Source of the DNA: Clostridia bacterium
GTDB lineage: Bacteria > Bacillota > Clostridia > Oscillospirales > CAG-272
DNA: 38,301 nucleotides
Assembly (NCBI GenBank): GCA_017508425.1
Contig: JAFVYZ010000038.1
Coordinates: 1 to 38,301 of the forward strand
Reading direction: 5' to 3'
Shown: piece after piece, positions 1 to 22,301 of the stretch
How positions within the stretch are numbered: position 1 is the first letter of the stretch
Layout of the letters: each line of letters begins with the position of its first letter
Notes under the pieces: model-generated
What the model was told of the DNA's origin: nothing
What the model saw: the letters and a program-made list of their open reading frames with translations, nothing else
Database searches by the model: none
Position numbers and translations under genes: made by a program

Positions 1-8
1 TGATGTTA

Positions 9-35
9 AAAAACCCGCCCTCGTGGCGGGTTTTT
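9..35. terminator. Intrinsic terminator, GGCGGG stem
   Basis: An 11-bp inverted repeat (9-19 and 25-35) with a 5-nt loop ctcgt, flanked by A and T runs so it could act in both directions. Any gene it terminates on the plus strand lies left of the window. The same AAAAACCCGCC/GGCGGGTTTTT stem recurs at 1848-1873 and 5046-5074 with different loops. Confidence 0.85.
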
Positions 36-43
36 GTTTTGGC

Positions 44-140
44 TTCTCGCCCTGCACAGGGCGAGAACCTGAAAGATCCAAACAACAGTGTAGCATTTGA
101 AGTTCTATGGTGGATCTTTCCACAAAGGCGCAGCCTTTGT
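44..140. repeat. Three consecutive inverted repeats
   Basis: Three palindromes follow each other without a gene between them. TTCTCGCCCT/AGGGCGAGAA is at 44-53 and 58-67. GAAAGATCC/GGATCTTTC is at 71-79 and 112-120. ACAAAGGC/GCCTTTGT is at 122-129 and 133-140. They form the left part of a palindrome-dense locus that continues to about 387. No protein-like reading frame is convincing here, and the function is unknown. Confidence 0.7.
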
Positions 141-164
141 AAACAAGCACCAGCAGGGGGAGCC

Positions 165-200
165 AAAAATAAAGCACTTCGAAAGAAGTGCTTTATTTTT
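165..200. terminator. Long bidirectional terminator-like hairpin
   Basis: A perfect 16-bp inverted repeat (165-180 and 185-200) closes a GAAA tetraloop. The outer A5/T5 ends give a U-tract in both directions. No gene within the window obviously ends here, so it is an orphan terminator-like stem. It directly precedes the alternating hairpin array at 203-387, an arrangement repeated at 22038-22301. Confidence 0.75.
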
Positions 201-202
201 AT

Positions 203-387
203 CCAAGCCGCAGGCTTGGCATATCATTGACGCACGAGGTGCGGCGTATATCATCAAGGGCGGGCTTGCCCGCCCTTGTATCTCATCACGCGCCAGCGTG
301 TATTTCCTGCGGCTTGATGATATACAACACTTCGTGTTGATGATATGCAATTCCTTCGGAATTGATGATATCCACGGCTTTGCCGTG
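203..387. repeat. Hairpin array with ATATCAT/ATGATAT linker units
   Basis: Seven short hairpins with unrelated stems lie in series: 203-219, 231-243, 255-278, 287-300, 325-339, 348-364 and 373-387. Stems are 5-11 bp and loops 2-4 nt, usually gca, ttc or ttt. A constant linker separates them. It reads ATATCAT at 221-227 and 248-254 (with a variant at 280-286) in the left half, and its reverse complement ATGATAT at 317-323, 340-346 and 365-371 in the right half. The unit therefore changes orientation part way through. No coding signal is visible. Confidence 0.8.
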
Positions 388-470
388 ATTTTATAGCGTG
401 CATTTTGTCCCTACATTGGACTTAAACCAGTGATATCTAAGAGCAAACCACACGGCTTGCTATGTACGTT

Positions 471-497
471 AATAGCGCCAACGGCGCGTCATGATGT
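471..497. repeat. 27-nt direct repeat, copy 1, with GCGCC/GGCGC hairpin
   Basis: This 27-nt segment is identical to 665-691. It contains a hairpin GCGCC-aac-GGCGC (475-487) followed by ATGATGT, which resembles the ATGATAT linker of the array at 203-387. A related GATATCTAAG precedes it at 432-441. The rest of 388-724 is gene-free: a CT-rich stretch (about 530-600, with CCCCGAGGGG at 590-599) and nothing else that can be assigned. Confidence 0.75.
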
Positions 498-664
498 TGC
501 GCTGTGCTGCGATTTTAGACAAGGCCCGTCAGAGGAACCTCCCCACCTCCCGCCCACACCCCAGCGCTCCGCGCCACCCCTCGCCGTCCCCCGAGGGGAT
601 ATTCTTTTTCACCATTGCATCTTTTCCCCGACCTTACGGGCTCGAGCCGGCGATATCCAAGTAT

Positions 665-691
665 AATAGCGCCAACGGCGCGTCATGATGT
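665..691. repeat. 27-nt direct repeat, copy 2
   Basis: Exact copy of 471-497, with the same hairpin at 669-681. It is preceded by GATATCCAAG (651-660), which matches GATATCTAAG near copy 1 except for one base. The distance from that motif to the repeat differs between copies, so the two units are diverged versions of a larger element. Confidence 0.75.
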
Positions 692-724
692 CGCACATCG
701 CTCTTGCGGCGTGTTTCTATTACA

Positions 725-760
725 GATAAAAAAGGGACGCGAGCGCGTCCCTTTTTTATC
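725..760. terminator. Bidirectional intrinsic terminator
   Basis: A perfect 17-bp inverted repeat (725-741 and 744-760) with a 2-nt centre, a GC-rich core GGGACGCG and A6/T6 flanks. It lies about 32 nt beyond the stop codon of the minus-strand HAD phosphatase gene and is the likely terminator for it. Confidence 0.9.
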
Positions 761-792
761 TTTTTGGTATGCTTTTAGCCCTATAAAGCTAT

Positions 793-1581
793 TTATATTT
801 TCCCTTCCAGGATCAATTTTTCAAGCGTTTCTATGACCTCGGCGGCGGCAGATTCCCAAACCGCTGCTTTTGTGACGTAGGTGGCGATGTTTTTTAAGCG
901 GTCCGTTGCATTTGCAACGGCAAAGGAAAGGTCGCATTTTTCAAACAAGGGGATATCGTTTTCATAGTCCCCCATGCCCACAAGCACGCGCGCCCCGAGC
1001 TTTTCCTTGAGAATGTTTGCCGAAACGCCTTTGGTATATTCGGTTTGCATGATCTCAAGGTACGTCGCAAAGCTCCGCGCAAACGTGTATTGCGGATAAT
1101 CAAGGGTTTCGCAAAATGCCTTCAGCCGATCTCCGTCGGCGGCGCTCGGGCAATTCAGAGTGACCTTGTATTTTTCGGTGGCGAGAGCTTCTTTTTTTCC
1201 AAATTCGGCGTATTCATCGAGGGTATATTGCTTGATTCCGTTGATACCAAACACGTTTATTTTCACCACGTTTAGGCCCGAAGCCAAAATTTCATCGACG
1301 GCCTCAAAGACGCCGCCATCAAGAGATCCCTTGCGCAGGATCTCGCCGCTGCCGACGTCGCAAATGAGGGCACCGCCAAAACAAATGCAGTAGGTGTTGG
1401 GTTTGACAAGATGCTGATTTTCGAGAAGATAATCGGGGGCTCTTCCGCTTGTGATCGAAAAGCGTCCGCCCTCGGCCATAAAATAATTTATTGCCGCCCT
1501 CGTCTTTTCGGGCATCGTTTTTTTGTAAAACAGCGTGCCGTCCCAATCCGAAGCGATCAAAACTCCATCAAATATTCCCAT
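793..1581 (-). CDS. HAD-superfamily phosphatase (Cof/YidA type)
   Basis: A 262-residue protein, the usual length for Cof-type HAD phosphatases, which hydrolyse small cytosolic phosphate esters such as sugar phosphates. The HAD signature is complete: motif I SDWDGT (nucleophile D12, acid/base D14), motif II ITSGR (43-47), motif III lysine K184 in TKGVSA, and motif IV GDYEND (204-209). Residues between about 80 and 180 would form the C2-type cap that sets substrate choice. There is no signal peptide. The ATG is preceded by AAGGAG at a suitable distance and by a good promoter (1615-1643). The gene is monocistronic, with terminator 725-760 downstream. The family is certain; the substrate cannot be read from sequence. 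Confidence 0.9.
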   Translation of the reverse strand: MGIFDGVLIASDWDGTLFYKKTMPEKTRAAINYFMAEGGRFSITSGRAPDYLLENQHLVKPNTYCICFGGALICDVGSGEILRKGSLDGGVFEAVDEILASGLNVVKINVFGINGIKQYTLDEYAEFGKKEALATEKYKVTLNCPSAADGDRLKAFCETLDYPQYTFARSFATYLEIMQTEYTKGVSANILKEKLGARVLVGMGDYENDIPLFEKCDLSFAVANATDRLKNIATYVTKAAVWESAAAEVIETLEKLILEGKI

Positions 1582-1614
1582 GCCATATTCTCCTTTTCGT
1601 TATCGCCATTTCTT

Positions 1615-1643
1615 ATTATACCATTTTGGGGAAGGCTTTTCAA
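1615..1643 (-). promoter_or_regulatory. Promoter of the HAD phosphatase gene
   Basis: Read on the minus strand: TTGAAA (1638-1643), 17-nt spacer, TATAAT (1615-1620). It lies about 34 nt upstream of the start codon. Confidence 0.8.
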
Positions 1644-1749
1644 TGATCTCGACGAATTTTACGTGTCGTATTTTGAGCATATCGCGAAGTCTCCGCTTTT
1701 GAAAATTGAACGTTACGAGCTGTTCAAGAAAATGTGTCGCTTTTCATGA
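1639..1749 (+). other. Possible short gene remnant (protein-like frame)
   Basis: An open frame of 36 codons ending in TGA at 1747-1749 reads like protein (FNDLDEFYVSYFEH..., ending KKMCRFS), without a start codon or ribosome binding site. It overlaps the -35 of the HAD gene promoter. It could be the decayed 3' end of a lost gene or chance. The remainder of the gap 1644-1911 holds only small inverted repeats around 1800-1840 and the terminator at 1848. Confidence 0.2.
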
Positions 1750-1847
1750 AGGGACTTTGATGTAGTGGATATTGCGTGGGGGGCTTTTGCGAGACGCTTC
1801 GCACGATCGGTGCGATCGTCCCCGCGGCATCGCCGCTTATATAAAAG

Positions 1848-1873
1848 AAAAACCCGCCATATGGCGGGTTTTT
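1848..1873. terminator. Bidirectional intrinsic terminator, GGCGGG stem
   Basis: A perfect 26-nt palindrome, AAAAACCCGCCAT and its reverse complement. It lies 38 nt past the stop of the minus-strand lyase gene. It shares its stem with the terminators at 9-35 and 5046-5074. Confidence 0.9.
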
Positions 1874-1911
1874 GTTTCAGTGCAATTGTAAAGAGCAACA
1901 CTCACAGCGCA

Positions 1912-3915
1912 TCAAATATTGACCTTAAGGCTTCGCGTCCTGCCGCTGTGCTCGGTAACGGTAACACATACCGTGCCGTTCTCTACCGTTGCCTCGACCG
2001 ACGAAATCACACCGCCCGCCTTGTGTGCTTCGATCACATTGACGTACACGGGGCATTTTTCGTTGGTGCGCTCAAGCAAATACGAAACGCGTTTATCCGC
2101 AGGATTGTCGGGTGCTTGCGCGTAGATCATATCGCAGTTACGGGTCAGCGTATATACGTCAAGGGAAAGCTCGCCTTTTTTAAACTCGCTTTTCAAAACT
2201 CCGCCCGTTGGCTTTAAAATATATGCGTGATCTACGTAGCTTTGCGCACCCTTATCGGAGAGTTTTCCGATATATTCGGCATCGCTTGGCAGCTGTGCCT
2301 TAGCGGCAACGTGGAGCGTCCATTCCTTTTTCAGCTCGTTTTCCGATTTTACCGAAAAAACGTCTATAAAATACGTATCGTGCCAGGATATGATGCGTCG
2401 CATACGCACACCCCGGTACGCCTCGTCACTCCATTGCTTTATCGTGAAGGTGTCGGGCATGGTATATGCCTCGGGCGGCAGTGTTTCGGCATCAAGATAA
2501 ATATCGTCGGGGGCATTTACCCTGTATTCGTTGACCACCGTTTCGCAGGGCGCCATATTTTCGCCGTCTATGACCACGGTATTATGGCTTGCGGTGTTTT
2601 TGTAATAGCCGTAATGAAGGGGAGAACCGTAGCCCGACGACGTGCCGAAATCGACACATAGCCCCGCGTCAAAGGCGTCAAACGAGATGGAAAGGCGATC
2701 GTAGTGGTCATGCTCGCCGCCGTAGGGCAACGCCTTGAAGATCAGATATCTATCGTCTGTTCCGTGCAGCTTGGCAAGATTTGAGCCGCGGCTTGATATG
2801 TAATTTTTCTTTTCAAGCGGGGGGAGCTTTTCGGGGAGCGAATCGACACCGTATAGCAGTGCCTCAAGTGAGCTCTCGCGCGCAGCGTCCCCATAAGTGG
2901 CGGCAAGCAGTGGCAGGAGCTCTTCGCTCAGAAGTGCCGCATAGGCGTATTCGCAGATGCCCGACATGCCCAAAAGGGGGTTACCACCGTCGTTAAAGGC
3001 TGCTATTTTATGATTTCCCACGTAAAGATTTTTCAAAAACAGCAGTGCGCTCTCAAGCTTTTTTCGGTAATGCGGATCTTTGAATAAGCTGTATTTCGTG
3101 TTTTTTGCCATTTGCTCAAACAGCATAAACCAAGAAAGCGAATAGCGGTGATACCACCCTGACCCCTCAAACCAAAAGCCGTCCTCGAGGTAAGCGTGGT
3201 CGATCTGATATTTTAAGCCGTATTTGGAATTGCAGGCGAATTCCACAAGCCGCTCGTCATTTATGGCGAGTCCGATCGCTGCGATCGAGGTGCAGATCGC
3301 GACCTCGTGATTATGAAGCTGAGGCGTGAGATATTTGATTTGATGCTCGGCTGCGGGGCGTAGAAGATCCGCTTCAATATGCTCGATCTCATCTGCCGTC
3401 AGCTCGTTTTTTATCAGCGCATACGCACGGGAAAGGCTGCATATCGGGTCGCAGTCGCTCAGCACCTGCGAAAGAAAGCGCCCGGGGTTGTTATAGGGGA
3501 TCCCGCCGTGCACCTCGTAATTTTTATAGTTGTCCGCATAGCCGAGCAGAATCTGCCTTGCGGTTTCAAAATAGGCTTTTTGTTCGGAGCCGACATAGGC
3601 GAGTGCGAGCTGATATGCGGCATTGGTCGTCATAACGAGCACCTTGCACCACCAAGCGCCGAGATAGGGCTCACCTGTATGAACACTGCCGCAATTTGAG
3701 CAGACAAAGCGCTCGTTGCAGTCATAATCAAATAGGAGCGCTGCGCCGCACTGCGGGCAGGAGAAATAGTGGTTCCAGGTGCCAAGACCCGTTTTTTGTA
3801 TATATAGCTTCCTTCTTACGTTGGCGGTCTTGGCATCGATCGCCTCAAGGAAAGCCGGGGCTTTGCGCACCCTTTCCTTGATACGTTTTATATCGCTTTG
3901 AGAATAGATCTCCAT
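1912..3915 (-). CDS. Heparinase II/III-type polysaccharide/oligosaccharide lyase
   Basis: A 667-residue protein. It has an N-terminal zinc ribbon (C53, C56, C72, C75), a central helical toroid and a C-terminal heparinase II/III-like beta domain starting around residue 380. Catalytic candidates fit heparinase II: NHE at 202-204 (His and Glu), a tyrosine in GWYHRY (Y255 or Y258), and H402/H404 in GGEHDHYD. The later HNT (444-446) is typical of the beta domain. The family cleaves uronic-acid-containing chains by beta-elimination. There is no signal peptide, so it probably acts on imported oligosaccharides in the cytosol. The start is the ATG at 3915, 7 nt after AAGGAGA; an in-frame ATG further upstream overlaps the promoter and is rejected. 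It is divergent from the isomerase gene at 4183. The exact substrate is unknown. Confidence 0.85.
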   Translation of the reverse strand: MEIYSQSDIKRIKERVRKAPAFLEAIDAKTANVRRKLYIQKTGLGTWNHYFSCPQCGAALLFDYDCNERFVCSNCGSVHTGEPYLGAWWCKVLVMTTNAAYQLALAYVGSEQKAYFETARQILLGYADNYKNYEVHGGIPYNNPGRFLSQVLSDCDPICSLSRAYALIKNELTADEIEHIEADLLRPAAEHQIKYLTPQLHNHEVAICTSIAAIGLAINDERLVEFACNSKYGLKYQIDHAYLEDGFWFEGSGWYHRYSLSWFMLFEQMAKNTKYSLFKDPHYRKKLESALLFLKNLYVGNHKIAAFNDGGNPLLGMSGICEYAYAALLSEELLPLLAATYGDAARESSLEALLYGVDSLPEKLPPLEKKNYISSRGSNLAKLHGTDDRYLIFKALPYGGEHDHYDRLSISFDAFDAGLCVDFGTSSGYGSPLHYGYYKNTASHNTVVIDGENMAPCETVVNEYRVNAPDDIYLDAETLPPEAYTMPDTFTIKQWSDEAYRGVRMRRIISWHDTYFIDVFSVKSENELKKEWTLHVAAKAQLPSDAEYIGKLSDKGAQSYVDHAYILKPTGGVLKSEFKKGELSLDVYTLTRNCDMIYAQAPDNPADKRVSYLLERTNEKCPVYVNVIEAHKAGGVISSVEATVENGTVCVTVTEHSGRTRSLKVNI

Positions 3916-3957
3916 AACGTCTCCTTTTAGTTGTGCGGTGAGGCTTGTTTTCAGCTG

Positions 3958-3991
3958 ATTATAATGTAACATAGCGCCGTGTCAATGTCAA
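3958..3991 (-). promoter_or_regulatory. Promoter of the lyase gene
   Basis: On the minus strand TTGACA (3980-3985), 16-nt spacer, TATAAT (3958-3963). A second TTGACA (3986-3991) stands 17 nt from TACATT (3963-3968), so two overlapping start sites are possible. Confidence 0.7.
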
Positions 3992-4111
3992 GACTTGGAT
4001 CAATAAGATTTTAGCAAGCGGCAGGTATTTTTTGGGGGGCTTTTGCGATCGCTCATTGGATAAAAGGGAAAAGGTGTTATTGTTTTTTACAACTTTTTTA
4101 TCTTTTCTTCC

Positions 4112-4140
4112 TTGTCATTTGGGGCGGGGATTGCTATAAT
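4112..4140 (+). promoter_or_regulatory. Promoter of the TIM-barrel isomerase gene
   Basis: TTGTCA (4112-4117), 17-nt spacer, TATAAT (4135-4140). The start codon follows 42 nt later, with AAGGAG at 4171-4176. The gap 3992-4111 between the divergent promoters shows no other recognisable feature. Confidence 0.8.
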
Positions 4141-4182
4141 TTTTATAGATCAGAGCAAATTCTCACAAAAAAGGAGTACGCG

Positions 4183-5040
4183 ATGTTACTTTCCACCAAT
4201 ATGATCAGGGTTCACGACGCATTTGGCATCAAGGGCATGTTTGACGTGCTGGCGAATGCGGGGTTTGAGGGCATTGATTTTAACCACGACGTGGCTGAAT
4301 ACTGCAGCGCGGAGCACGACAAGGCGTTTTACGAGGATCTTGCCGCTTACGCAAGAGAAAAGGGGATTGCGATTTGTCAGGCGCACGCGGCCTTCCCCCC
4401 GAGCTTTTTAAACGATGAGGAAAAGACCGAGCGGCGCTTCCTTGAGATCGTGCAAGGCATCAAAAATGCGGCGTATATGGGCGCGCCGATGACCGTGGTG
4501 CATCCTTGCACGCATCTTGATTGCTACGAGGGTGATAATTTTGAGAAAATGTTTCAATACAATCTCGATTTTTACAGGCGCCTGATTCCTGTTGCCAAGG
4601 AGCACGGCATCAAGCTGGCGATCGAAAATCTCGGCCGTAAGGCGATCACCAACAAGCCCGAGGGGCTTTGTCGGTTGTATGACGCGCTTGACAACCCCGT
4701 GTTTACTGTTTGCTTTGATATGGGGCATTGTTTGCTGCACGGCGTCGATCCCGCCGAGGCGATCCGCACGCTCGGACACCGTTTGGTGGACGGGTGCATC
4801 CACGTTCACGATAATATGGGTGACGCGGACTCTCACACCCTGCCTTATTACGGAAAAATCGACTGGGAGAGCGTGATGCAGGCGCTCGCGGACATCGGTT
4901 ACAAGGGCGATCTCAACTATGAGGCATCGGGCTTTATCAAGGATATCCCCGTGGCGCTTCGCCCCGACGGACTTTCCTATATGGCAAAGGTCGGCCATCA
5001 TTTGATAAGCCGCTTTGAGTATTACAAAAATAATGGATAA
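4183..5040 (+). CDS. Xylose isomerase-like TIM-barrel sugar (phosphate) isomerase/epimerase
   Basis: A 285-residue protein of the AP endonuclease 2/xylose isomerase-like fold (the IolE/IolI/ketose epimerase group). Metal ligand candidates lie at the expected strand ends: E148 in AIENLG, D179 and H182 in CFDMGH, H209 in IHVHDN and E247 in NYEASG. Such enzymes bind a divalent metal and isomerise or epimerise sugars or sugar derivatives in the cytosol. Start: ATG with AAGGAG 6 nt upstream. It has its own promoter (4112-4140) and its own terminator (5046-5074), so it is monocistronic. It lies back to back with the lyase gene, which suggests a shared sugar-catabolic role; that link is an inference. 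The substrate is unknown. Confidence 0.85.
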   Translation: MLLSTNMIRVHDAFGIKGMFDVLANAGFEGIDFNHDVAEYCSAEHDKAFYEDLAAYAREKGIAICQAHAAFPPSFLNDEEKTERRFLEIVQGIKNAAYMGAPMTVVHPCTHLDCYEGDNFEKMFQYNLDFYRRLIPVAKEHGIKLAIENLGRKAITNKPEGLCRLYDALDNPVFTVCFDMGHCLLHGVDPAEAIRTLGHRLVDGCIHVHDNMGDADSHTLPYYGKIDWESVMQALADIGYKGDLNYEASGFIKDIPVALRPDGLSYMAKVGHHLISRFEYYKNNG

Positions 5041-5045
5041 ATCTC

Positions 5046-5074
5046 AAAAACCCGCCCCGTTGGGCGGGTTTTTT
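5046..5074. terminator. Intrinsic terminator, GGCGGG stem
   Basis: AAAAACCCGCCC (5046-5057), loop cgtt, then its complement and a T6 run ending at 5074. It begins 5 nt after the stop codon of the isomerase gene. Confidence 0.92.
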
Positions 5075-5082
5075 GGTGTTAC

Positions 5083-5111
5083 TTGACACGTAGGGTAGGA
5101 TATGCTACAAT
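5083..5111 (+). promoter_or_regulatory. Strong promoter of the ECF S-component gene
   Basis: Consensus TTGACA (5083-5088), 17-nt spacer ending in an extended -10 TGC, TACAAT (5106-5111). The leader to the start codon is only about 45 nt and holds a small CCCC/GGGG hairpin (about 5129-5142). That is too short for a typical substrate riboswitch. Confidence 0.88.
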
Positions 5112-5162
5112 GTATTTACATAAAATCCCCTCGAACGGGGCTTGATTTTGGGAGAAACAGAG

Positions 5163-5696
5163 ATGCGGAGCTTAACGAAAAAACGGGTAACGGCGCTGGT
5201 GACGGCGGCCATGCTTTTGGCGCTGGGGCTTGTGTTGCCGTCCCTTGTGGGGAATATCAAGGAGATTGGCGACTCTCTTTTGCCGATGCATTTGGCGGTG
5301 ATGCTGTGTGGCATCCTTTGCGGAGGATGGTACGGGCTTGGCACGGGGCTTATGATGCCGTTTTTGCGCGCCGTATTCTTCGGGATGCCGCCCCTTTATC
5401 CGAACGCTGTATGGATGGCGTTGGAGCTTGCGACCTACGGTCTTGTGATCGGACTTTTGTACGCGCGCGGCAAGGCTTATCGAAGAGGATATTTGTTTTT
5501 TTGCCTTGTCAGCTCCATGCTTTTGGGGCGCGTGGTGTGGGGGATCGCCAAGGCGGTGCTGCTCGGTATCGGCGGCAAGCCCTTTGGGTGGCAGGCCTTT
5601 TTTGTGGGCGGATTTATCGATGCCGTACCGGGGCTTTTGCTTCAATTGGTACTCATCCCTCTGACCGTCGAATTGCTTGAAAAAAGAAAAAAATAA
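5163..5696 (+). CDS. ECF transporter S component (substrate-binding membrane subunit)
   Basis: A 177-residue, very hydrophobic protein with about six membrane segments (roughly residues 10-30, 40-60, 65-85, 85-105, 110-135, 145-170) and the size of S components of energy-coupling factor vitamin/micronutrient importers. The GGWYGLGTG and GMPPLYPNA segments resemble unclassified ECF S proteins; the ligand cannot be told. Start: the ATG at 5163 follows GGGAGA. An in-frame TTG at 5142 lies before the ribosome binding site and is rejected. The shared A, A' and T components are not in this window. The gene is transcribed alone from a strong promoter and stops at the bidirectional terminator 5709-5745. 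Confidence 0.75.
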   Translation: MRSLTKKRVTALVTAAMLLALGLVLPSLVGNIKEIGDSLLPMHLAVMLCGILCGGWYGLGTGLMMPFLRAVFFGMPPLYPNAVWMALELATYGLVIGLLYARGKAYRRGYLFFCLVSSMLLGRVVWGIAKAVLLGIGGKPFGWQAFFVGGFIDAVPGLLLQLVLIPLTVELLEKRKK

Positions 5697-5708
5697 GCTC
5701 TTGCTTGC

Positions 5709-5745
5709 AAAAAAGCCGAGAACGTGACACGTTCTCGGCTTTTTT
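5709..5745. terminator. Shared bidirectional terminator between convergent genes
   Basis: An 18-bp perfect inverted repeat (5709-5726 and 5728-5745) with A6/T6 ends, placed 12 nt after the ECF S-component stop and 25 nt after the convergent aminotransferase stop. Confidence 0.93.
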
Positions 5746-5770
5746 CGCCCCTTTGAGGGGCAGTTTGCAT

Positions 5771-7078: not shown

Positions 7079-7141
7079 CATATCCTCCCAAAATAGAAAA
7101 TTTTTGTTTGGCTCAGGGGCAAAAGCACCCCTTATAAAAAA

Positions 7142-7150
7142 ATTATAACA
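7142..7150 (-). promoter_or_regulatory. Extended -10 promoter of the aminotransferase gene
   Basis: On the minus strand TGT TATAAT (TATAAT at 7142-7147) forms an extended -10. The -35 region is poor. The leader to the start is about 60 nt and contains a small AGGGG/CCCCT hairpin (7115-7132). An ATTGT/ACAAT inverted repeat at 7189-7203 lies between the two divergent promoters. Confidence 0.6.
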
Positions 7151-7246
7151 AACAACGCGCCCCTTTGGTAGGAAGAATGCATAAGAAAATTGTAAAAAAC
7201 AATTAATTTTGCGGGAGAAAGACGGATGGGAAAATCCGATTTTGGA

Positions 7247-7275
7247 TTGACAAGCATGCAAAAAAATGCGATAAT
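7247..7275 (+). promoter_or_regulatory. Promoter of the amidohydrolase-sugar kinase operon
   Basis: TTGACA (7247-7252), 17-nt spacer, GATAAT (7270-7275). The start codon is only about 20 nt downstream of the -10, so the leader is very short. Confidence 0.8.
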
Positions 7276-7295
7276 AAAGCCAAGAGGTGATTATT

Positions 7296-8174: not shown

Positions 8175-8187
8175 AAGGATACAAGAG

Positions 8188-9216: not shown

Positions 9217-9294
9217 GGCGGTTGTTGCAGATAGCACTTTTTTTGGAAAAATGCGCGCATTTCAGCATTATCCTCGCGCGTGCGCGTGCGATGC

Positions 9295-9324
9295 TTGACG
9301 GAAATCTTTTATAAATGAGATAAT
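9295..9324 (+). promoter_or_regulatory. Promoter of the GH20-CocE-MBL operon
   Basis: TTGACG (9295-9300), 18-nt spacer, GATAAT (9319-9324). The leader is about 120 nt, long for this window, and contains a hairpin GCTATTT/AAATAGC (9358-9377) followed by TTTT, plus a CGTG/CACG stem (about 9420-9434). That leaves room for post-initiation control, but no known riboswitch is recognised. Confidence 0.65.
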
Positions 9325-9450
9325 AATATGGGCCTGTAGCGTTTTTGGCAGATAAGAGCTATTTTTTGTGAAATAGCCTTTTGGCTTGACGGGGCAGGAT
9401 CTAATATGGGAGAATACCGCGTGGCATCGTCACGAAAGGGAGGAAAAGCA

Positions 9451-11856: not shown

Positions 11857-11875
11857 TTTGAAAAAGGAGTTATTG

Positions 11876-13435: not shown

Positions 13436-13445
13436 GGAGAAGCAT

Positions 13446-14222: not shown

Positions 14223-14242
14223 TTTTGGGGAGGGCATATCTT

Positions 14243-15025: not shown

Positions 15026-15057
15026 ACAAAAAAGGAGCGTACGCTCCTTTTTTGTTT
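15024..15057. terminator. Terminator of the GH20-CocE-MBL operon
   Basis: A perfect 34-nt palindrome (15024-15040 and 15041-15057) with stem core GGAGCGT and A/T-rich arms. It overlaps the stop codon of the second MBL gene. Confidence 0.93.
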
Positions 15058-15083
15058 TGACAGGGCTTTGCGGAAAATAACGA

Positions 15084-15112
15084 TTGAAATCGCCGTCACC
15101 GTATGCTATAAT
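15084..15112 (+). promoter_or_regulatory. Promoter of the three-domain phosphoesterase gene
   Basis: TTGAAA (15084-15089), 17-nt spacer ending in an extended TGC, TATAAT (15107-15112). The start codon lies 46 nt downstream with AAAGGA at about 15147-15152. Confidence 0.87.
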
Positions 15113-15157
15113 GGTGGCATACGACAAAAAACGGCCGTGTGCCGTGAAAGGAACCCC

Positions 15158-17296
15158 ATGAAGATTTGTTTTTTGTGCGATCTGCACCTGCCCTTTGACA
15201 CGACCGCGCTCCAGTACCGCGTGCTTGATTGGGCGGTGGATGACATTGCCAAAAAAGCCCCCGACTGCATTGCGTTTGCAGGCGACGTGACCTGCGACGG
15301 CGGAGCCGAGGCGTATCATTATTTTTTGTCTCATATTGATGCGCTGGAGATCCCGTTTGCGTATATCCCCGGCAACTCGGACCTGCGCTGCAAGGATACG
15401 GCCGAGGGCCTCAAGGCCTCGGCCTCGCGCAAGGTGACCGAGGTGGAGGGCAAGCGTATTTTCGCCGTCAATGACTGTGATAAAACGCTTGGAGAGAAAA
15501 TGCTTTCGGTGCTTGAAGGCGCGCGTGACGGCGATATTGTCTTTATGCATCATCCCATAAGCTCGCTTCGCGGTGAGAGCCGTGAAAAAATGCTCGCCTG
15601 GCGTGAGGCACATCCCGGCACGCTCCTTTTTTACGGACACGAGCATACAAGCAAGCGAGAGGGCAACGATATTTGCTTGCAGGCCATGGACCCCGATAAG
15701 GCGATCGGCGAGAGCGCGTGCATTACCTATTACGATACCGACACCGACACCCTCACGCCCTCGTATTTCTTTTGCCCCGTGCCCGTGGATATGCACGGAT
15801 ACCTTGGCATTTCCTGCTACCGTCCCGAGGGGGATATTGAATTGGCCACCAAACGGGGCTTAAAATACCTTGAGCTGCGCAAAAATGCCCTCGACCGTGA
15901 CTTCGAAGCCCTCGCGGCTCTTTTGGCGGAGTGGCGCGCGGCAGGGGGCGTGGGACTTTCGCTTCACCTGCCCGACGTTGCATATCAAGAGGGAAGCGTG
16001 CTTTTGGATCCGCGCTTTGATGAGTATCTTGCGCTCATCCCAAGACTTGGTGTTGACCGCGTGACCCAGCATGTGCCGAAGGTGCCCGTAGGGGCTGCTA
16101 CCCCCGACGTGCTCGATGCGATCGCTACGGTGCTCGCCGAAGGGCTAAACGCCCTGCCGTATGATATCGTGGTGGGCATTGAAAATATGCATATGACGGA
16201 AAACGAGCGCCCCGATGCGAACCGCCGCTTTGGTTACACGCCCGAGGAGTGTCTGTTGTTTATGCGAGCCCTTCAGGCGAAATGCCGTCACCGTGTGGGC
16301 ATTAATTTTGACATCGGGCACGCGCGAAACAACGCGCCGTACAGTCAGCGCTATCAAATCAGCACGTGGCTCTCGATGCTGGGTGAGCATATCGTAGGCT
16401 ATCACGTGCACCAGATCGACACCACCGGTGAAAAGTGGCGCAACCATATGCCCATTACCCATATTTACGGCAAGCTCATCAGCTACGGGTCATTGTTTCG
16501 CAGCTGGGCCGAGGGGGCGATCCGACGGGCGCCCGTGATCTTTGAAATGCGCCCCGAGGGCGCGTACGAAACGACCCTTGACGTCTTTGAGGCCGAGAAA
16601 AATAAAGCGGTTTTTGACCTGCACGCGCACGGGCGCTTCAGCCGTTGCAGTAAGGACGATACCCGTAAGGTCGTGGAGGCCGCGATCGCCAACGGCATCA
16701 CCCTTTTTGGCATCACCGACCATAGCCACGGTATCAAGGAAAATATCGATGAGTACGTCGGTGAGGTCCGCGCTCTTGCCGAGGAATACCGCGATCGTAT
16801 CCGATTGCTTTGCGGCATTGAGGTGGCGACGCTCCCGTATAAATTTGAGCCCGAGGTTCATTTGAAGGTTCAAAAATGCGATTACTGCCTTATTGAGCAT
16901 ATCACCGACCCCGAGAGCGCGGTGGGCAAACATATTTTTGAGTTTTGCGAAAAAATGGGTCGCCGTTGCGGCATTGCTCACACCGACCTTTTCGCCTTTT
17001 GCGATATGTACGGGCTTGATTATGAGTCCTTTTTCACCGAGATGGCCGAGCGCGGTATTTTTTGGGAAATGAACATCAACCTCGACAGCACCCACAAGTA
17101 CCGCGAGCACGAATACGTGCGCGAGTTTCTCGGAAATCCCGAGCGTGTGGCGCTGGTAAAGCGTGCAGGCACCGCCATCAGCATCGGGTTTGACAGCCAC
17201 AGACACGAGGAGTACAACGGCGAGCGCGTGCATCGCGCCAACGCGCTCTTAAAGGAGCTGGGCCTCAAAACAGCGGATGGATATTTCAAGATCTAA
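15158..17296 (+). CDS. Three-domain fusion: metallophosphoesterase, TIM barrel (xylose isomerase-like), PHP phosphoesterase
   Basis: A 712-residue protein with three metal-dependent domains in one uninterrupted frame. Residues 1-210: calcineurin-like phosphoesterase with D8/H10 (CDLH), D43 (AGDVTCD), N73 (GNSD), H131 (MHHP) and H161/H163 (GHEH). Residues about 212-470: xylose isomerase/AP endonuclease 2-like barrel with E342 (GIEN), D385/H388 (FDIGH), H416/H418 (YHVH) and E463 (FEM). Residues about 485-712: PHP domain with HAH (489, 491), D521/H522 (TDHSH), E555 (GIEV), H581 (EHI), H608 (AHTD) and D679/H681 (DSHRH). All three metal sites look complete. There is no signal peptide. Start: ATG after AAAGGA; an in-frame start at 15068 overlaps the promoter and is rejected. 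Monocistronic. PHP proteins of the histidinol-phosphatase type and MPEs both cleave phosphoesters, so a multistep dephosphorylation/isomerisation is imaginable but unproven. Confidence 0.88.
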   Translation: MKICFLCDLHLPFDTTALQYRVLDWAVDDIAKKAPDCIAFAGDVTCDGGAEAYHYFLSHIDALEIPFAYIPGNSDLRCKDTAEGLKASASRKVTEVEGKRIFAVNDCDKTLGEKMLSVLEGARDGDIVFMHHPISSLRGESREKMLAWREAHPGTLLFYGHEHTSKREGNDICLQAMDPDKAIGESACITYYDTDTDTLTPSYFFCPVPVDMHGYLGISCYRPEGDIELATKRGLKYLELRKNALDRDFEALAALLAEWRAAGGVGLSLHLPDVAYQEGSVLLDPRFDEYLALIPRLGVDRVTQHVPKVPVGAATPDVLDAIATVLAEGLNALPYDIVVGIENMHMTENERPDANRRFGYTPEECLLFMRALQAKCRHRVGINFDIGHARNNAPYSQRYQISTWLSMLGEHIVGYHVHQIDTTGEKWRNHMPITHIYGKLISYGSLFRSWAEGAIRRAPVIFEMRPEGAYETTLDVFEAEKNKAVFDLHAHGRFSRCSKDDTRKVVEAAIANGITLFGITDHSHGIKENIDEYVGEVRALAEEYRDRIRLLCGIEVATLPYKFEPEVHLKVQKCDYCLIEHITDPESAVGKHIFEFCEKMGRRCGIAHTDLFAFCDMYGLDYESFFTEMAERGIFWEMNINLDSTHKYREHEYVREFLGNPERVALVKRAGTAISIGFDSHRHEEYNGERVHRANALLKELGLKTADGYFKI

Positions 17297-17324
17297 AAAA
17301 AGCTCCCCCGTGGGGGAGCTTTTT
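17297..17324. terminator. Bidirectional terminator between convergent genes
   Basis: A 13-bp inverted repeat AAAAAGCTCCCCC (17297-17309) and complement (17312-17324), immediately after the fusion gene stop and directly before the convergent acyltransferase stop at 17326. Confidence 0.92.
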
Positions 17325-17325
17325 G

Positions 17326-18630
17326 TTATTTTTTGGAGGCCAGCGCCTGTCGGTGCGCCGCGTGACGGTGCTCGCGTGCGAGCTTATAAAGTTCTTCGGT
17401 CGCAAGCCGTGCCTTGGCGGCAAAGTCGCCCGCGTTTTTGGGGAAGCAGTAGTAAAGGGCGCGGTTGGTGCCGATCGAAATGACGTCCCCGATCTCGTAC
17501 CAGTTAAAGTCGGAGTTGAGGGTGTAGGAAAGGATGGGGTCCTGCGCGTAGTCGAGCTTGCCCTCGCACCCCGTCAGGTGAAAGCCTGCGATCGAGTGCG
17601 TCAGGTGCCCCTCGCCCACGCGGTAAAGGCACTTGCTGTCGGCAAGCATATAAATATCCACGTCGAGCTCCATCAGATACGTGCGGCTGTCGATCTCGCG
17701 CTTCACGCACTCGCGCTCCCAGCGGAACCAGTCGGGCACGTGCGAAAAGTAGCCATCGCCCTCGGTGGCAACAAGATACCCGTACTCGTCAAGCTCCCAG
17801 CGCTTGCCGCACGCATGGCAGGTGAGCGCGGTGCCCTTGCCCTCCATTTTGCCCTCGGTCTTGCAATGGGGACACTTGTAAAGCACGCGGTTGAGGCAAT
17901 CGGCGCGGAAGGGCTCACAGATCTTTATGTTGTTTTCCTGCTGCCAGCGGAAATTGTCAAACGAGAATTTCTCTTGGATGCGATGGGTGATCTCCTCGGC
18001 CGAAAGCGCCTTTATGTCCTCGGCGGATAAGAGATATTCCATCGTGGCCGAGGTATGTACCTTTCGCAGCTGCAAATTGTTATAAAGGGGATCGCGCGCA
18101 AACGCGCCCTTGGTTTCGATCATCACCACGGGCACACCCAGGAGCTTGACGCATTTGCCAAGGTGATCGGGCAACACGGTTGCGGTGCCGTCAAACGAGT
18201 ATCCCGCCTCGGGGAACATCAAAACCGAGCTTTTCAGCTTCTTCGTGGCATAGACCATATCGCGCACAAGGTTTAAGTCCGACACAAATTTGTTCGTCGG
18301 GATGCAGCCAAGGCGGCGCATCAGCCATTTTTTGCCGACGAAGCCGTCGGTGGTGCAAACGATGTTATAGGGGCGCGAATGGAGCATTTCCGAGGCCATT
18401 TTGAGGTCGATGAAGCTCGAGTGATTCATCAAAAAGAGTGCGGGCTCCCGTTTGCCGAGACGCTCCATGCCGATCCTCTCATATTTAAAATGCGTGGCCA
18501 TAAGGTCGGGAGCGGATACGATGCGAAGAAGTGTGCGCCAAAAGATATTTTGCTTTAAGGGCTTTTTGTGGTGGTGGGCGGGGAGCGCCAGCACCTCCTC
18601 ATAGCTTTTGTTTTTGATCTTGATCTTCAC
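17326..18630 (-). CDS. PlsC-type acyltransferase with C-terminal zinc ribbon
   Basis: A 434-residue protein. Residues about 30-215 match the 1-acylglycerol-3-phosphate acyltransferase family: NHSSFID (69-75, catalytic H70 and D75) and MFPEAGYS (138-145), in place of the usual FPEG motif. Residues about 250-275 form a zinc ribbon (C253, C256, C271, C274), followed by an extra region of about 160 residues of unknown role, so the protein is much longer than a plain PlsC (about 200-250). Start: GTG at 18630 with AGGAAGGA upstream; an in-frame ATG at 18666 overlaps the -10 area. It has its own promoter (18672-18700). It probably acylates a lipid or glycolipid at the inner membrane face; acceptor unknown. 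Confidence 0.85.
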   Translation of the reverse strand: MKIKIKNKSYEEVLALPAHHHKKPLKQNIFWRTLLRIVSAPDLMATHFKYERIGMERLGKREPALFLMNHSSFIDLKMASEMLHSRPYNIVCTTDGFVGKKWLMRRLGCIPTNKFVSDLNLVRDMVYATKKLKSSVLMFPEAGYSFDGTATVLPDHLGKCVKLLGVPVVMIETKGAFARDPLYNNLQLRKVHTSATMEYLLSAEDIKALSAEEITHRIQEKFSFDNFRWQQENNIKICEPFRADCLNRVLYKCPHCKTEGKMEGKGTALTCHACGKRWELDEYGYLVATEGDGYFSHVPDWFRWERECVKREIDSRTYLMELDVDIYMLADSKCLYRVGEGHLTHSIAGFHLTGCEGKLDYAQDPILSYTLNSDFNWYEIGDVISIGTNRALYYCFPKNAGDFAAKARLATEELYKLAREHRHAAHRQALASKK

Positions 18631-18671
18631 GGTGTGGTCCTTCCTTGTTGAAATATGGGATACCAAGGGCT

Positions 18672-18700
18672 ATTTTATCACAATTCAGTGCTTTTTGCAA
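18672..18700 (-). promoter_or_regulatory. Promoter of the acyltransferase gene
   Basis: On the minus strand TTGCAA (18695-18700), 17-nt spacer ending TGA (extended -10), TAAAAT (18672-18677). Confidence 0.78.
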
Positions 18701-18724
18701 GCATACAAAAGCGGTGTATTTGTA

Positions 18725-19897
18725 TCAGCGATCGACCACGTCGCGCGAGATCGCACCGAGCAGCCCCGACGCGGTGAAAACGGTGTACTCGCCCACGCGC
18801 TCTCCTGTGTCAATGAGGCGGAAGAAGCTCGTATCGCCTGCAAAGATCTCCTTGGGCACGGGATTGACGATCAGGAGCTTTCGCCCCTCACCCTCGAAGG
18901 AAAAATCAAACTGCGTGGTGTAGCGGAAGTATTCCACGCGTCGGAAGCGAAAGCTATGTAGGCATTGCACGATCCCTTTTTCCGAGAAATACAGGGGGGA
19001 GTTGCGCTTTAAGGACCCAAAAAGCTTACACGTGTAGGTTTTTTCGCCGTGATGAATGATAAAATTCACCTCGTCGCGAAGCCGCACGAGCGATCGGAAC
19101 GGGCGCTTTGGTCTTGATACGGTGGCGCCGATCTTGGAGCAAAGGGCAAAAAGATCGCGCAAAAAGCGGCGGCGTATGCGCCAAGCGCGTGCCAAGCGTA
19201 TCAGGTAGAGCGAAAGGATCGGCAGGATGATGAGGGCCGCGGGCAGCCACCAGCGCAGTGCCACAAGGGCCTCGGAAATGTAATAGATCGACAAGAACAC
19301 GGGGATAAAGAATATGCCGGCCAGCGACCCGATGAGATACAGGGCCGCAATGCCGAGAAATTTGAGCACAAGAGACCCCAAATAGCGATCCCCCTTGTCA
19401 AAGCCCTCCTCATAGGCCCAAAACAAAAAGGCAAAGTAGCGCGCTAGGAGCCAGCCGCCGAGGAACAGGGGGAGCATCAGGAGCAGGGCGGCGGCCTTTT
19501 TGACAAATCTCGGCAAAGCCGAAGCGCCAAAGAGAAGCTTCACGGGGGACCCGAGTCCCACCTCAAAGGGGAGGATCACGGGCAACAAAAGGAGCACGAG
19601 GAGCTCGATGCGAAGCGAGGGGCTTTGCAAGAGCAGAGCCACGATCGCTTTGGGGGAACGGTGGTGAATGTCGTGCTCTGCACGGTAGGCGAGGGCCAGG
19701 TCTCTTAAATTGCGGTCGGTCTCACCGAAGATGCGCGCCGTGCTGTGAAAAAGGAGGGGAAGCAGCACCGTGCAGGGCAGGGGCGAGAAGCGGAAGCACA
19801 GCGAGCAAAGGCCGACAAGCACCAAAAAGCAAAGGTAAAGTGAAAGGGTACGGCATATGCGTAAATAAAGGGGAATATATTTTTTCAGATCATCCAC
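18725..19897 (-). CDS. Unrecognised multi-pass membrane protein
   Basis: A 390-residue protein that matches no family I can name. The N-terminal about 260 residues hold roughly five to six hydrophobic segments (about 14-32, 38-52, 95-115, 135-160, 180-210, 215-235), separated by basic loops. The C-terminal about 120 residues are soluble and beta-rich (for example EVNFIIHHGEKTYTCKLFGSL and a run ending GEYTVFTASG), possibly a cytosolic sensor or enzyme-like domain. Start: GTG at 19897, placed 7 nt after AAGGAGGTGCC. It has its own promoter between it and the upstream GT-C-like gene. The neighbours (a PlsC-type acyltransferase and a GT-C-like protein) suggest an envelope role, an inference only. 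Confidence 0.75.
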   Translation of the reverse strand: MDDLKKYIPLYLRICRTLSLYLCFLVLVGLCSLCFRFSPLPCTVLLPLLFHSTARIFGETDRNLRDLALAYRAEHDIHHRSPKAIVALLLQSPSLRIELLVLLLLPVILPFEVGLGSPVKLLFGASALPRFVKKAAALLLMLPLFLGGWLLARYFAFLFWAYEEGFDKGDRYLGSLVLKFLGIAALYLIGSLAGIFFIPVFLSIYYISEALVALRWWLPAALIILPILSLYLIRLARAWRIRRRFLRDLFALCSKIGATVSRPKRPFRSLVRLRDEVNFIIHHGEKTYTCKLFGSLKRNSPLYFSEKGIVQCLHSFRFRRVEYFRYTTQFDFSFEGEGRKLLIVNPVPKEIFAGDTSFFRLIDTGERVGEYTVFTASGLLGAISRDVVDR

Positions 19898-19925
19898 GGC
19901 GGCACCTCCTTTCTCAATCGTTTAC

Positions 19926-19954
19926 AGTATAGCACAGTTTTTGTCGATTGTAAA
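19926..19954 (-). promoter_or_regulatory. Promoter with overlapping inverted repeats
   Basis: On the minus strand TTTACA (19949-19954), 17-nt spacer ending in TGC, TATACT (19926-19931). The -35 and the bases beyond the -10 form a GTTTACA/TGTAAAC inverted repeat. CAATCG/CGATTG is also mirrored, in 19915-19926 and 19944-19954. It could be an operator for a repressor. Confidence 0.72.
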
Positions 19955-19957
19955 CCT

Positions 19958-21829
19958 CTACGTGGCGAGCCACAAGGAGAGGGTGTTGTCCATGGTTTTA
20001 TAGGTTTGGTGTAGGCGGTAGCCCTCTTTGGCCACAAAGGCGGTGAGAAAATCGCGCATTTGCCGTGTGCCCGAGACCCCGCCGCCCCGAAACGCCTGCT
20101 CGTGAGAGGTGTAGGCGTACTCGCTCGTGTGGTAGATGAGAATGGCCCTCGGTGGGTTTTTTAAAAGGACCTCTATATCGGCCCGTATTGCTTCGTCGCT
20201 GGCCACATCAAACCATTGTACCTTGGTAAAGATCCCGGGGTCGGGGCGATCGGTCAGCACGTAAAAGATGGGAATTTGCGGGAAGCAAAAGATCGGCTCG
20301 CCGGGGGGCACGTGGCGTGTCACGGTATTGACAATGTCGCGGTACACCGCGGCGGTCGCGGGGGAGACTGCGATCCCCTCGGCCCGAGGCAGGCCGATCG
20401 GCTCGGTGCATTCCCAAAAGCTGCTTTCATTCATTCCCCACCAGTTGTAGGGGAAAACCAGCTTTTTATCGGCACTGTGAAGGGCGAGCAGGAGCGCGAG
20501 CAGTAACACGCCGCCGCGCACGGTAACGGTACAGGCGTCAGCGGCTTTCTGTGCCCCAAAAAAGACGCGCTCGGCAAGGGTGGTTGCGGAAAGTATGAGA
20601 AACAAAATGCCAAAGGGGGCTTGACCCTCCGCGAGCCCCCCTGAATTTCCGCACGCAAAGGAAAGGGCCACGTAGGCCCCCGATACAACGAAAAAGGGCA
20701 GGTACGGGGCGAGCTTTTGCGTGTTTTTTGCCATATCGACAATGCCGAGGACGCCAAGGACCGCAAAGAGGGGAGTGACCGTCAAAAAGACGGTGTAGGT
20801 GGAAAGGTAATACCGAGGGGCGAGGGCCTTTCCTGCCGTGTCGGAGCAAAGTGCTATGATCAAGAGCAAAAGCAGGGGCAGGAAAAAGAGGATCCCCGCA
20901 AGGAGCCCCTGCTCGTTTTTGGGCGGCGAGGGGCTTTTGGGGAGCCAATATCCCCCAATAAGCAGGAACAAAAAGAGCAGTGCCGCCGGCAGGGCCGAGA
21001 GAAAGGCACCGCCGTTGTTGATGAGCCACCCGAATAAAATGGCAAAAAGACCGCCTTTGGCCCCCGCGGCCGCGCCGCCCGTCATCATAAAATAGCCCGT
21101 CAGCGACCCGGTGGCGGCCAGTGCCGCGATCACCGAAAGACAAAAGCCGACAAGGGGGACAAGGAGCCATAAAAGGTCAAAAAGCAGAACCGTTTTGGGT
21201 TTTTTTGCCCAAATGCACAGGTAAATGAGCAGGATCAGGGCAAACGCCGTGAAAATAAGACCGGTGTTTTGCTTGATATTGAGGAGGACACCGAGAAGCA
21301 CTCCACACGTAAGAAGATCACGTCGGCACGGCCTGCCCTTGACCAGGGCCTTGGCGGCCTTTAGTAGGAAATAAAGTGAAAAGATCGAGAAAATATCCAT
21401 AAACCGTACGTAATCGTAAAAGGTTTGCACCACCTCGGATTGCAGATAAAACGCGCCGCACACCGCGGCGACCGCCGCCACGGCGCACCGCCGCTTGCCA
21501 ACCACCTCAACGCCGACAAGATAGAGCCCGACGGTGATGAGTAAGAAAAAAAGAACACCGAGGCGGCGCAAAACGATCAGCTCATAGCCGAACACGCGCG
21601 TGAAAAACGCCACCGTGTAAATATAAACGGGTGGGTAGAGATATTCAAAATTGCGGTAGGGGAGCGCACCTTCGTTGATGCAACGCGCATAGTAGGTGTA
21701 CCAGCCCTCGGCAAATGGCAGGGTACGTGTGTGCAGAGCCCCTGCCAGCAGCAGGGCGGCGCCCAGCGCGAGGAGTAAACATAAATAAAATTTAAGATCT
21801 TCGCATCGTTTTTCTTCGGTTACCCTCAT
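19958..21829 (-). CDS. GT-C-like integral membrane glycosyltransferase (GT39/PMT-like)
   Basis: A 623-residue protein with about 11-12 membrane segments, then a soluble C-terminal part (about 500-623) after the last hydrophobic run. The segment after the first helix, PFAEGWYTYYARCINEGALPYRNFEYLYPPVYIY (given by position 38-71), has the layout of the first extracytoplasmic loop of polyprenyl-phosphate-sugar-dependent GT-C enzymes, with E41 in the place of the usual catalytic acidic residue. These enzymes move sugars from lipid carriers to proteins, lipids or cell-wall polymers outside the membrane. Start: ATG at 21829 after GGGAGAG; longer in-frame starts run into palindromic DNA. A -10-like TATAAA lies about 30 nt upstream, with a weak -35. 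Acceptor and donor are unknown. Confidence 0.7.
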   Translation of the reverse strand: MRVTEEKRCEDLKFYLCLLLALGAALLLAGALHTRTLPFAEGWYTYYARCINEGALPYRNFEYLYPPVYIYTVAFFTRVFGYELIVLRRLGVLFFLLITVGLYLVGVEVVGKRRCAVAAVAAVCGAFYLQSEVVQTFYDYVRFMDIFSIFSLYFLLKAAKALVKGRPCRRDLLTCGVLLGVLLNIKQNTGLIFTAFALILLIYLCIWAKKPKTVLLFDLLWLLVPLVGFCLSVIAALAATGSLTGYFMMTGGAAAGAKGGLFAILFGWLINNGGAFLSALPAALLFLFLLIGGYWLPKSPSPPKNEQGLLAGILFFLPLLLLLIIALCSDTAGKALAPRYYLSTYTVFLTVTPLFAVLGVLGIVDMAKNTQKLAPYLPFFVVSGAYVALSFACGNSGGLAEGQAPFGILFLILSATTLAERVFFGAQKAADACTVTVRGGVLLLALLLALHSADKKLVFPYNWWGMNESSFWECTEPIGLPRAEGIAVSPATAAVYRDIVNTVTRHVPPGEPIFCFPQIPIFYVLTDRPDPGIFTKVQWFDVASDEAIRADIEVLLKNPPRAILIYHTSEYAYTSHEQAFRGGGVSGTRQMRDFLTAFVAKEGYRLHQTYKTMDNTLSLWLAT

Positions 21830-21902
21830 ATTTTCTCTCCCGTTTTCGTTTTTTCTATTTATAGTATGGTGATTTTTTGCGAAAAAACAACGGGGAGGAT
21901 TC

Positions 21903-22017
21903 TTTTTCGATGAAAAAGCGCCGCGAGCAATGGGTGATGTTCTTAGCGGAGAATTTGAAATCTCCACTAAGTGCGAGCATCGCATTTGACCGGTCAAATG
22001 CAAATGGGCTAAGCCCA
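21903..22017. repeat. Cluster of four palindromes
   Basis: Four palindromes follow one another: TTTTTC/GAAAAA (21903-21917), TTAGCGGAGA/TCTCCACTAA with one mismatch (21943-21970), the perfect 20-mer GCATTTGACCGGTCAAATGC (21982-22001) and TGGGCT/AGCCCA (22005-22017). They lie upstream of the GT-C-like gene and form the left part of a gene-free locus of about 640 nt (21830-22471). No coding signal is seen. Confidence 0.7.
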
Positions 22018-22037
22018 ACCCTATATTACAAGCAGAA

Positions 22038-22085
22038 AGAGCAAGAGTAAAAGGAGAAAAATCCTTCTATTCTTGCTCTTGTTTT
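22038..22085 (+). terminator. Terminator-like long stem without an obvious gene
   Basis: AGAGCAAGA (22038-22046) pairs with TCTTGCTCT (22071-22079). An inner AGGA/TCCT stem extends it, and TTGTTTTT follows. No plus-strand gene precedes it. The placement directly before a hairpin array repeats what is seen at 165-387. Confidence 0.6.
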
Positions 22086-22092
22086 TCTTCTG

Positions 22093-22301
22093 TCGATATG
22101 TCAACTTCGTTGACTCGATATGCTTTCGCTATGCTCAAGCTCGATATATTGTCGCTATGCGCCAATTCGATATGAGATAAGTCCCTCGTTTGCGTAGCAA
22201 ACATATCGAGTGCGTCAGCACATATCGAACGCCGCAGGCGTATATCGAAAATCCTGCAAGGGATTTATCTCGATGCGTGTTCTCCGTTAAGGATAACACG
22301 C
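22093..22301. repeat. Hairpin array with TCGATAT/ATATCGA linker units
   Basis: A constant 7-mer TCGATAT stands at 22093-22099, 22115-22121, 22141-22147 and 22167-22173. Its reverse complement ATATCGA stands at 22203-22209, 22222-22228 and 22242-22248. Between the units lie unrelated short hairpins: GTCAAC/GTTGAC (22100-22114), GCTT/AAGC (22122-22140), ATTG/CAAT (22148-22166), GTTTGC/GCAAAC (22188-22202), GTGC/GCAC (22210-22221), ACGCC/GGCGT (22229-22241) and AAATCC/GGATTT (22249-22266). Outer arms at 22174-22186 and 22259-22271 pair with one mismatch around the last hairpins. GCGTGTT/AACACGC (22275-22301) closes the locus. 22302-22436 shows nothing assignable. Confidence 0.8.

Follow-up and report, generated by a model that had tools for sequence, protein, structure and literature searches.

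A hairpin-linker array common to two small intergenic elements of uncultured gut Clostridia and its association with PF05635 proteins

Two intergenic loci, A and B, in a 38,301-nucleotide stretch of DNA from a Clostridia bacterium (Oscillospirales, CAG-272; contig JAFVYZ010000038.1 of assembly GCA_017508425.1) were compared with the described systems that they most resemble. The whole stretch, hereafter the window, corresponds to contig C23 of an 83%-complete draft genome of 1.77 Mb. Both loci contain an array of short hairpins joined by a recurring linker. Repetitive extragenic palindromes and their mosaic clusters (REP/BIME), accompanied by REP-associated tyrosine transposases (RAYT), likewise consist of intergenic palindromes in inverted order, and their hairpins are constant; in the arrays studied here, by contrast, the linkers are constant and the hairpins vary, and one conserved, repeated palindrome was not found. 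Miniature inverted-repeat transposable elements (MITEs) such as BOX, RUP and SPRITE are described in passages of PMC10969869 as short, multicopy and intergenic, with inverted repeats and stable folds. B is likewise short, multicopy and non-coding, with terminal inverted repeats, but it occupies the loop of a host terminator and carries an array with subtype-specific linkers, and no parent transposase was identified. Islands anchored at tRNA genes, tycheposons and elements at the ends of tRNA, rumA/rlmD and guaA genes resemble A in occupying gene 3' ends, with gene-end direct repeats and cargo (parts of PMC10872708 and PMC4701971); among the streptococcal integrase sites treated in a section of the latter, tyrosine integrases are found at tRNA and guaA and serine integrases at rumA. 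Many A-type elements also start at the 3' end of a tRNA, tmRNA or other attachment-site (attB) gene, with direct repeats of that end, but the inserts between these repeats measure 158-3656 bp, the array lies at the entry side and no recombinase was recognized by eye in the stretches read.

Two further systems involve PF05635 proteins or a protein resembling them, the family being termed functionally uncharacterised in a passage of PMC11270868. According to the same source, intervening sequences of 23S rRNA with intervening-sequence-protein (IVP) genes encode such a protein together with a structured insert. The elements described here lie outside rRNA where looked for, at tRNA, tmRNA, rlmD and guaA ends or at terminators (Rfam found only tRNAs in five loci), and they combine a different PF05635 clade with a hairpin-linker array. 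PF05635 also resembles Avd of diversity-generating retroelements (PMC10053308, in part), whose homing depends on a hairpin or cruciform that the DNA forms next to the target (PMC3240598, in part); the likeness of this requirement to the arrays is only a lead. Among the open papers listed by the searches, several of them broad, none described hairpin-linker arrays beside genes of PF05635 or B-like elements occupying terminator loops, most subscription papers and all bioRxiv preprints being outside the scope of the search. Within that scope the original prediction, made from the letters of the window, was right to name no described family with this layout.

The window loci and their common array

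The original prediction suggested for both loci one family with a single plan, namely palindromes, a long stem and an array of hairpins whose linker inverts. Its coordinates hold, the linker of each array inverts halfway and the array is the module common to A and B; the two loci are, however, not two copies of one element but two different platforms for the array, and each is one copy of a family dispersed in uncultured gut Clostridia. We regard it as probable that, taken as a whole, these are hairpin arrays on two small-element platforms, cognate with a PF05635 protein and moved by recombinases acting in trans. The two platforms, the common module, the association with a protein clade and the preference for particular sites are direct observations. 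The features of the two loci are as follows.

Locus A (150-392)
150-165, + strand: 16-nt copy of the tRNA-Asn 3' end, an att-like half site, from identity with the genome's own tRNA-Asn gene
165-200, + strand: perfect terminator-like stem between tRNA tail and array, an order that recurs at other copies
201-392, + strand: hairpin-linker array A, linker ATATCATC then GATGATAT

Locus B (21933-22301) and the terminator around it
21918-21925, + strand: left arm of the interrupted terminator, GCGCCGCG, with an A run before it, from sequence reading and flank comparison
21933-21953, + strand: left terminal inverted repeat, from comparison of B copies
21982-22001, no strand: palindrome GCATTTGACCGGTCAAATGC, recurring with variation in B copies, from copy comparison
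22006-22016, no strand: palindrome GGGCTAAGCCC, recurring with variation in B copies, from copy comparison
22037-22083, no strand: long internal terminator-like stem, from folding and copy comparison
22093-22274, + strand: hairpin-linker array B, linker TCGATAT then ATATCGA, from the array detector and folding
22275-22301, + strand: right terminal inverted repeat, itself a hairpin, from copy comparison
22306-22313, + strand: right arm of the interrupted terminator, CGCGGCGC, T run lost, from sequence reading and flank comparison

Locus A runs from tRNA tail through terminator to array, a single A at position 165 serving both as the last base of the tail and the first of the stem. The claim that this stem has no gene to terminate fails, since its tRNA is present, reduced to a 16-nt 3' tail. 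A 13-mer of the tail has its sole other exact match in the genome at positions 713-725 of contig C10, within the intact tRNA-Asn gene (L495:650-725), so that gene and tail repeat lie on separate contigs. Downstream of the C10 gene are repeats of the type found at the start of the window, and a contig break within this tRNA-Asn island is therefore most likely. One such repeat, AATAGCGCCAACGGCGCGTCATGATGT, occurs twice in the window (461-515 and 664-705) and again behind the tRNA-Asn gene on C10, there together with the terminator AACCCGCCCTCGTGGCGGGTT. The first half of the array uses the linker ATATCAT(C), and GATGATAT takes over from position 316. Judged by eye, a half copy of the hairpin at 203-219 stands at 306-316, and in A and B alike the centre of the array carries such a half copy of the terminal hairpin. 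Locus B is an element of about 370 bp with inverted-repeat ends inside the loop of an intrinsic terminator, and its palindrome region spans 21933-22020. The window copy looks decayed, because the terminator arms are only 8 bp long and the T run is gone.

The layout stands out clearly from shuffled DNA, the comparison proposed as its refutation. Locus A folds with a z score of -10.4 as DNA and -10.7 as RNA (0 of 200 shuffles folding as well in each case), and B as RNA reaches -154.1 kcal/mol (z -10.2, 0 of 100 shuffles folding as well). In the genome of the window, the A linker pattern was counted 20 times, and the pattern read backwards not once. A detector requiring at least five linkers with one inversion registered an array in 30 of 38 B copies and in none of 380 Markov resamples; run as a control on other genes, it gave scattered matches, which fell in 6 of 36 loci of 3-4 kb. 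The B set leaves out nine matches whose right end was not located and two copies with poor right ends (L082, L126), while L131, whose right end is also poor, was included in the flank-arm test described below (n = 39) and excluded from the detector count (n = 38). The array of L131 is broken by about 250 bp of other sequence.

By our grouping, B arrays use eight or so linker words (TCGATAT, ATGAATT, GCGATAT, GTGATAT, GTTATGA, TGATGTT, GTGAAGT and TGAAATC), which equal or come near to words upstream of genes for the four-helix PF05635 protein. Because other subtypes have other words, the GATAT common to the two window linkers, to which the original prediction had drawn attention, looks incidental. 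Exact reverse complements in the second half amount to 1.68 within the same B copy versus 0.20 in other copies. An alignment of 20 A copies shows nearly invariant linkers, paired across the midpoint in the consensus fold, which therefore yield no covariation in this subtype; the hairpins show compensated exchange on both sides in 20 of 65 pairs and are swapped between copies as whole units. Rfam reported only the signal recognition particle (SRP) RNA in the window and matched no array there or in the five other loci scanned, so a known Rfam family was rejected as the identity of the array. At L485:1-1700 (G058, contig C14) three arrays are consecutive, two by the detector and a third by eye, the first two each followed by genes in the manner of tandem cassettes.

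Four-helix proteins beside the arrays

A gene for a four-helix-bundle protein of PF05635 (23S_rRNA_IVP, TIGR02436) adjoins many A arrays. Ten of these A-type proteins, drawn from four families of the order and including that of L359, share 81-100% identity with the L359 protein, and an eleventh, at L349, has only 40%. The family PF05635 is represented in 40 of 59 genomes versus 0 of 14 control genomes. Of 106 matches, 81 loci were examined for arrays, and open reading frames (ORFs) with less than 350 nt of flank were left out of the counts: arrays lie within 420 nt upstream of 39/76 PF05635 ORFs and downstream of 3/75 over all loci, or 31/67 and 3/69 without the 11 loci chosen through an A match. 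The co-occurring protein for which the original prediction advised a search is thus found in related genomes. The association has limits: in a class-wide sample arrays were present at 7 of 28 PF05635 loci, all of one protein type by eye (one of the loci, L480, has only 141 nt upstream), and they were detected at 0 of 14 classical IVP loci, classed by eye, and at 0 of 8 plasmid loci of other phyla. These counts rule out a universal link between PF05635 and arrays. On two cyanobacterial plasmids (L450, L451) the PF05635 gene sits between cas2 and cas1; IVP genes near CRISPR loci are mentioned in parts of PMC3936711 and PMC10910872.

Protein pairs share the same linker word in 46/46 cases at 80% identity or more, in 21/50 at 60-80% and in 53/607 below 60%, counts that retain the probably false array of L434. 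Among 19 cluster representatives, word-sharing pairs are more alike than others (0.58 vs 0.50; 3 of 10,000 permutations). This agreement supports co-inheritance of linker word and PF05635 subfamily. The two PF05635 genes of the window's genome have the linkers GTTATG and ATATCAT, and the nearest word to TCGATAT at the PF05635 genes read is CGATATA, in another genome (L445).

At rlmD-like or guaA ends, 7 of 8 loci have 13-30 nt between the end of the detected array and the start codon, which leaves scant space for a promoter, and the array is therefore probably transcribed there. The foremost alternative, that it is a structured RNA, leader or processing signal of the four-helix gene, with mobility secondary, draws on this spacing, on the covariation of the hairpins and on the very stable RNA folds of A and B. 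The DNA fold is equally extreme, however, many tRNA-type loci have a terminator ahead of the array and a TATAAT-like box behind it, and B copies as well as many A copies have no adjoining four-helix gene, all of which makes this alternative unlikely, if still deserving of attention. Of 42 loci, 18 have such a box, with at most one mismatch, in the interval from array to gene (no control was run). Given the box at some loci and the scant room at others, the active form of the array may be DNA, RNA or both.

Insertion sites and cargo of the two platforms

Occurrence was counted over 59 genomes, the window's own included. A matches were found in 23 of them, frequently in the order tRNA or tmRNA gene, terminator immediately after CCA, array and genes. 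In 21 of 38 A copies a tRNA/tmRNA 3' tail 12 nt or more in length lies within 95 nt (11 whole genes and 10 fragments; L372 and L336, without upstream sequence, excluded), against 19 of 2000 random windows, 9 of these being fragments; the other 17 copies show no tail of 12 nt. Eight loci were chosen for their likely tail match. At seven of them the last 13-20 nt of an intact tRNA or tmRNA gene recur as a direct repeat 158-3656 bp downstream, and the eighth (L489) has a single copy of the tail only. The 3656-bp unit, at L487, comprises a terminator, an array and three genes, for a four-helix protein, a weakly matching GDSL-like protein and an MBOAT protein; beyond it lie the repeat and a further set of terminator, array and four-helix gene, then a EutH gene. 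Some of the 42 array-plus-protein loci are at contig ends and offer little sequence upstream. In 17 of the 42 the array is preceded within 200 nt by a complete tRNA or tmRNA (in 11 of 32 without those picked through A). Seven further loci have tRNA tails by eye, six matching a tRNA or tmRNA end over at least 17 nt and L419 over only 7 nt. Another seven have an rlmD-like end by eye; the arrays at rlmD and guaA ends belong to linker types other than that of A. Eight upstream genes were tested: all four of the rlmD-like ones examined are rlmD, that of L404 is guaA, L424 and L392 gave no match and L414 a sub-threshold match only.

The left part of B has matches in 28 of the 59 genomes and 12 of 39 genera. 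Oriented copies consist, in order, of left inverted repeat, palindromes, terminator-like internal stem (of a few sequence types), array and right inverted-repeat hairpin, and they have no protein gene of their own. Most are flanked by the halves of a terminator stem, the left arm accompanied by an A run and the right arm by a T run, and the arms vary by copy. The arms are more alike than 99% of mismatched pairs in 22 of 39 copies, and 0 of 10,000 permutations reach the observed mean; in the remaining copies they are weaker or absent. At L080 and L104, in two genomes, B elements with similar neighbours apparently lie in opposite orientation, with differing terminator arms.

Longer elements with B-like ends and the same terminator position contain genes.

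L134: 1504 bp, cargo DUF559
L135: 892 bp, cargo DMP19, array present
L136: 1952 bp, three genes scanned, none with a Pfam match
L290, from the same genome as the window: 1416 bp, cargo an AAA-like gene that falls short of the Pfam cut-offs, plus a broken RAYT-like gene
L175, L218, L255, L261: further cargo-bearing elements with B-like ends

The DMP19 gene lies at L135:865-1266, and a very similar one, by eye, at L175:1891-2314 of another genome. Two further candidates, a 3969-bp pair in L236 and a 1193-bp pair in L104, were dropped for weak arms. The L290 element adjoins a CobW-like gene present in 20 of the 21 genomes of the genus. At 15 of those 20 loci that could be read, the element is present in the window's genome and absent within 330 nt (less at contig ends) from the other 14, several of which have an uninterrupted terminator, e.g. 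L317 (G009), L318 (G006), L319 (G001) and L321 (G018).

The RAYT-like gene of L290 (1068-1601, contig C5) is broken, its larger piece matching NF047646 with a score of 57.7 against a cut-off of 80; palindromes of the GTAG...CTAC type lie inside and beside it, and Y1_Tnp matches occur in 10 of 21 genus genomes. As a single sub-threshold piece in one element, it was not adopted as the mobiliser of B. A viral carrier was also discarded, the inverted-repeat pattern having no match in viral contigs and the A-type four-helix protein no confirmed relative there. The RAYT-like piece and these palindromes, together with the swapping of whole hairpin units, could suggest that the arrays are a passive residue of repeated REP/BIME-like palindrome insertions homogenized by recombination. 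Against this stand the constant linkers and variable hairpins, the reverse of the REP arrangement, the recurrence in both A and B of a single mid-array inversion and a half copy of the end hairpin, and the tight association with PF05635 genes, and we consider such a residue improbable. Retention of the arrays by the host as transcription insulators or terminators is very improbable: they do lie at 3' ends next to terminators, but the 81-96% identity of A-type four-helix proteins across four families to the protein of L359, the direct repeats of tRNA ends, the cargo genes and the absence of a cargo element from orthologous sites all speak otherwise.

Proposed function and occurrence

A family of modular, probably non-autonomous mobile elements, one of the possibilities that the original prediction named, fits well. 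Under the favoured reading, arrays on two mobile platforms with a cognate PF05635 protein, the array is a chain of small hairpins in which first-half linkers can pair with second-half linkers, which would give a folded comb of junctions in single-stranded DNA or RNA. Each four-helix protein would bind its own array, and recombinases supplied in trans would integrate the cassettes, A at gene 3' ends and B at terminator hairpins; the array might help to fold, protect or pair the element during integration, and B copies would be array carriers lacking their own protein gene.

Several results weigh against this reading. Neither window array is adjoined by a matching protein gene: the gene after A encodes a HAD-type hydrolase rather than a four-helix protein (a very similar gene adjoins the A copy of G015), and no PF05635 gene with the B word TCGATAT was found in the 83%-complete draft. 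No array was detected at 36 of 67 PF05635 ORFs or at any of the classical IVP loci, and the agreement between linker and protein could reflect shared descent. By eye, no integrase was recognized among the ORFs of ten long regions, no integrase profile search having been made. No intact transposase was identified with an array or recognized among the cargo genes scanned in elements sharing B ends, the sole transposase-like gene being the broken RAYT-like piece. B copies show by eye no clear or constant target duplication. No exact empty site was found: orthologous CobW-like loci lack the element at locus level but bear other terminators.

A bolder version, which we hold as tentative, makes array and four-helix protein a self-recognising unit, in which each PF05635 subfamily would read its own linker word. 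The folded array would then be the recognition site of a new cassette-capture system lining up gene cassettes downstream of tRNA, tmRNA, rlmD and guaA ends and parasitising terminators, with the window harbouring two cut-down members. PF05635 gains a candidate cognate nucleic acid, and a readable word that varies with the protein makes binding directly testable. The elements also point to an apparently unnamed layer of small cassettes for which tRNA ends and terminator loops may serve as safe havens.

The B end pattern GTGATGTYCTTARCGGAGAA was found in at least 116 stretches of the named genome collection. Titles of the 80 matches listed refer to metagenome-assembled Clostridia, Clostridiales and Oscillospiraceae, one Ruminococcus and one Fimenecus, and 55 of these 80, by hand count among the matches listed, name the gut of roe deer, water deer, sheep or goat.

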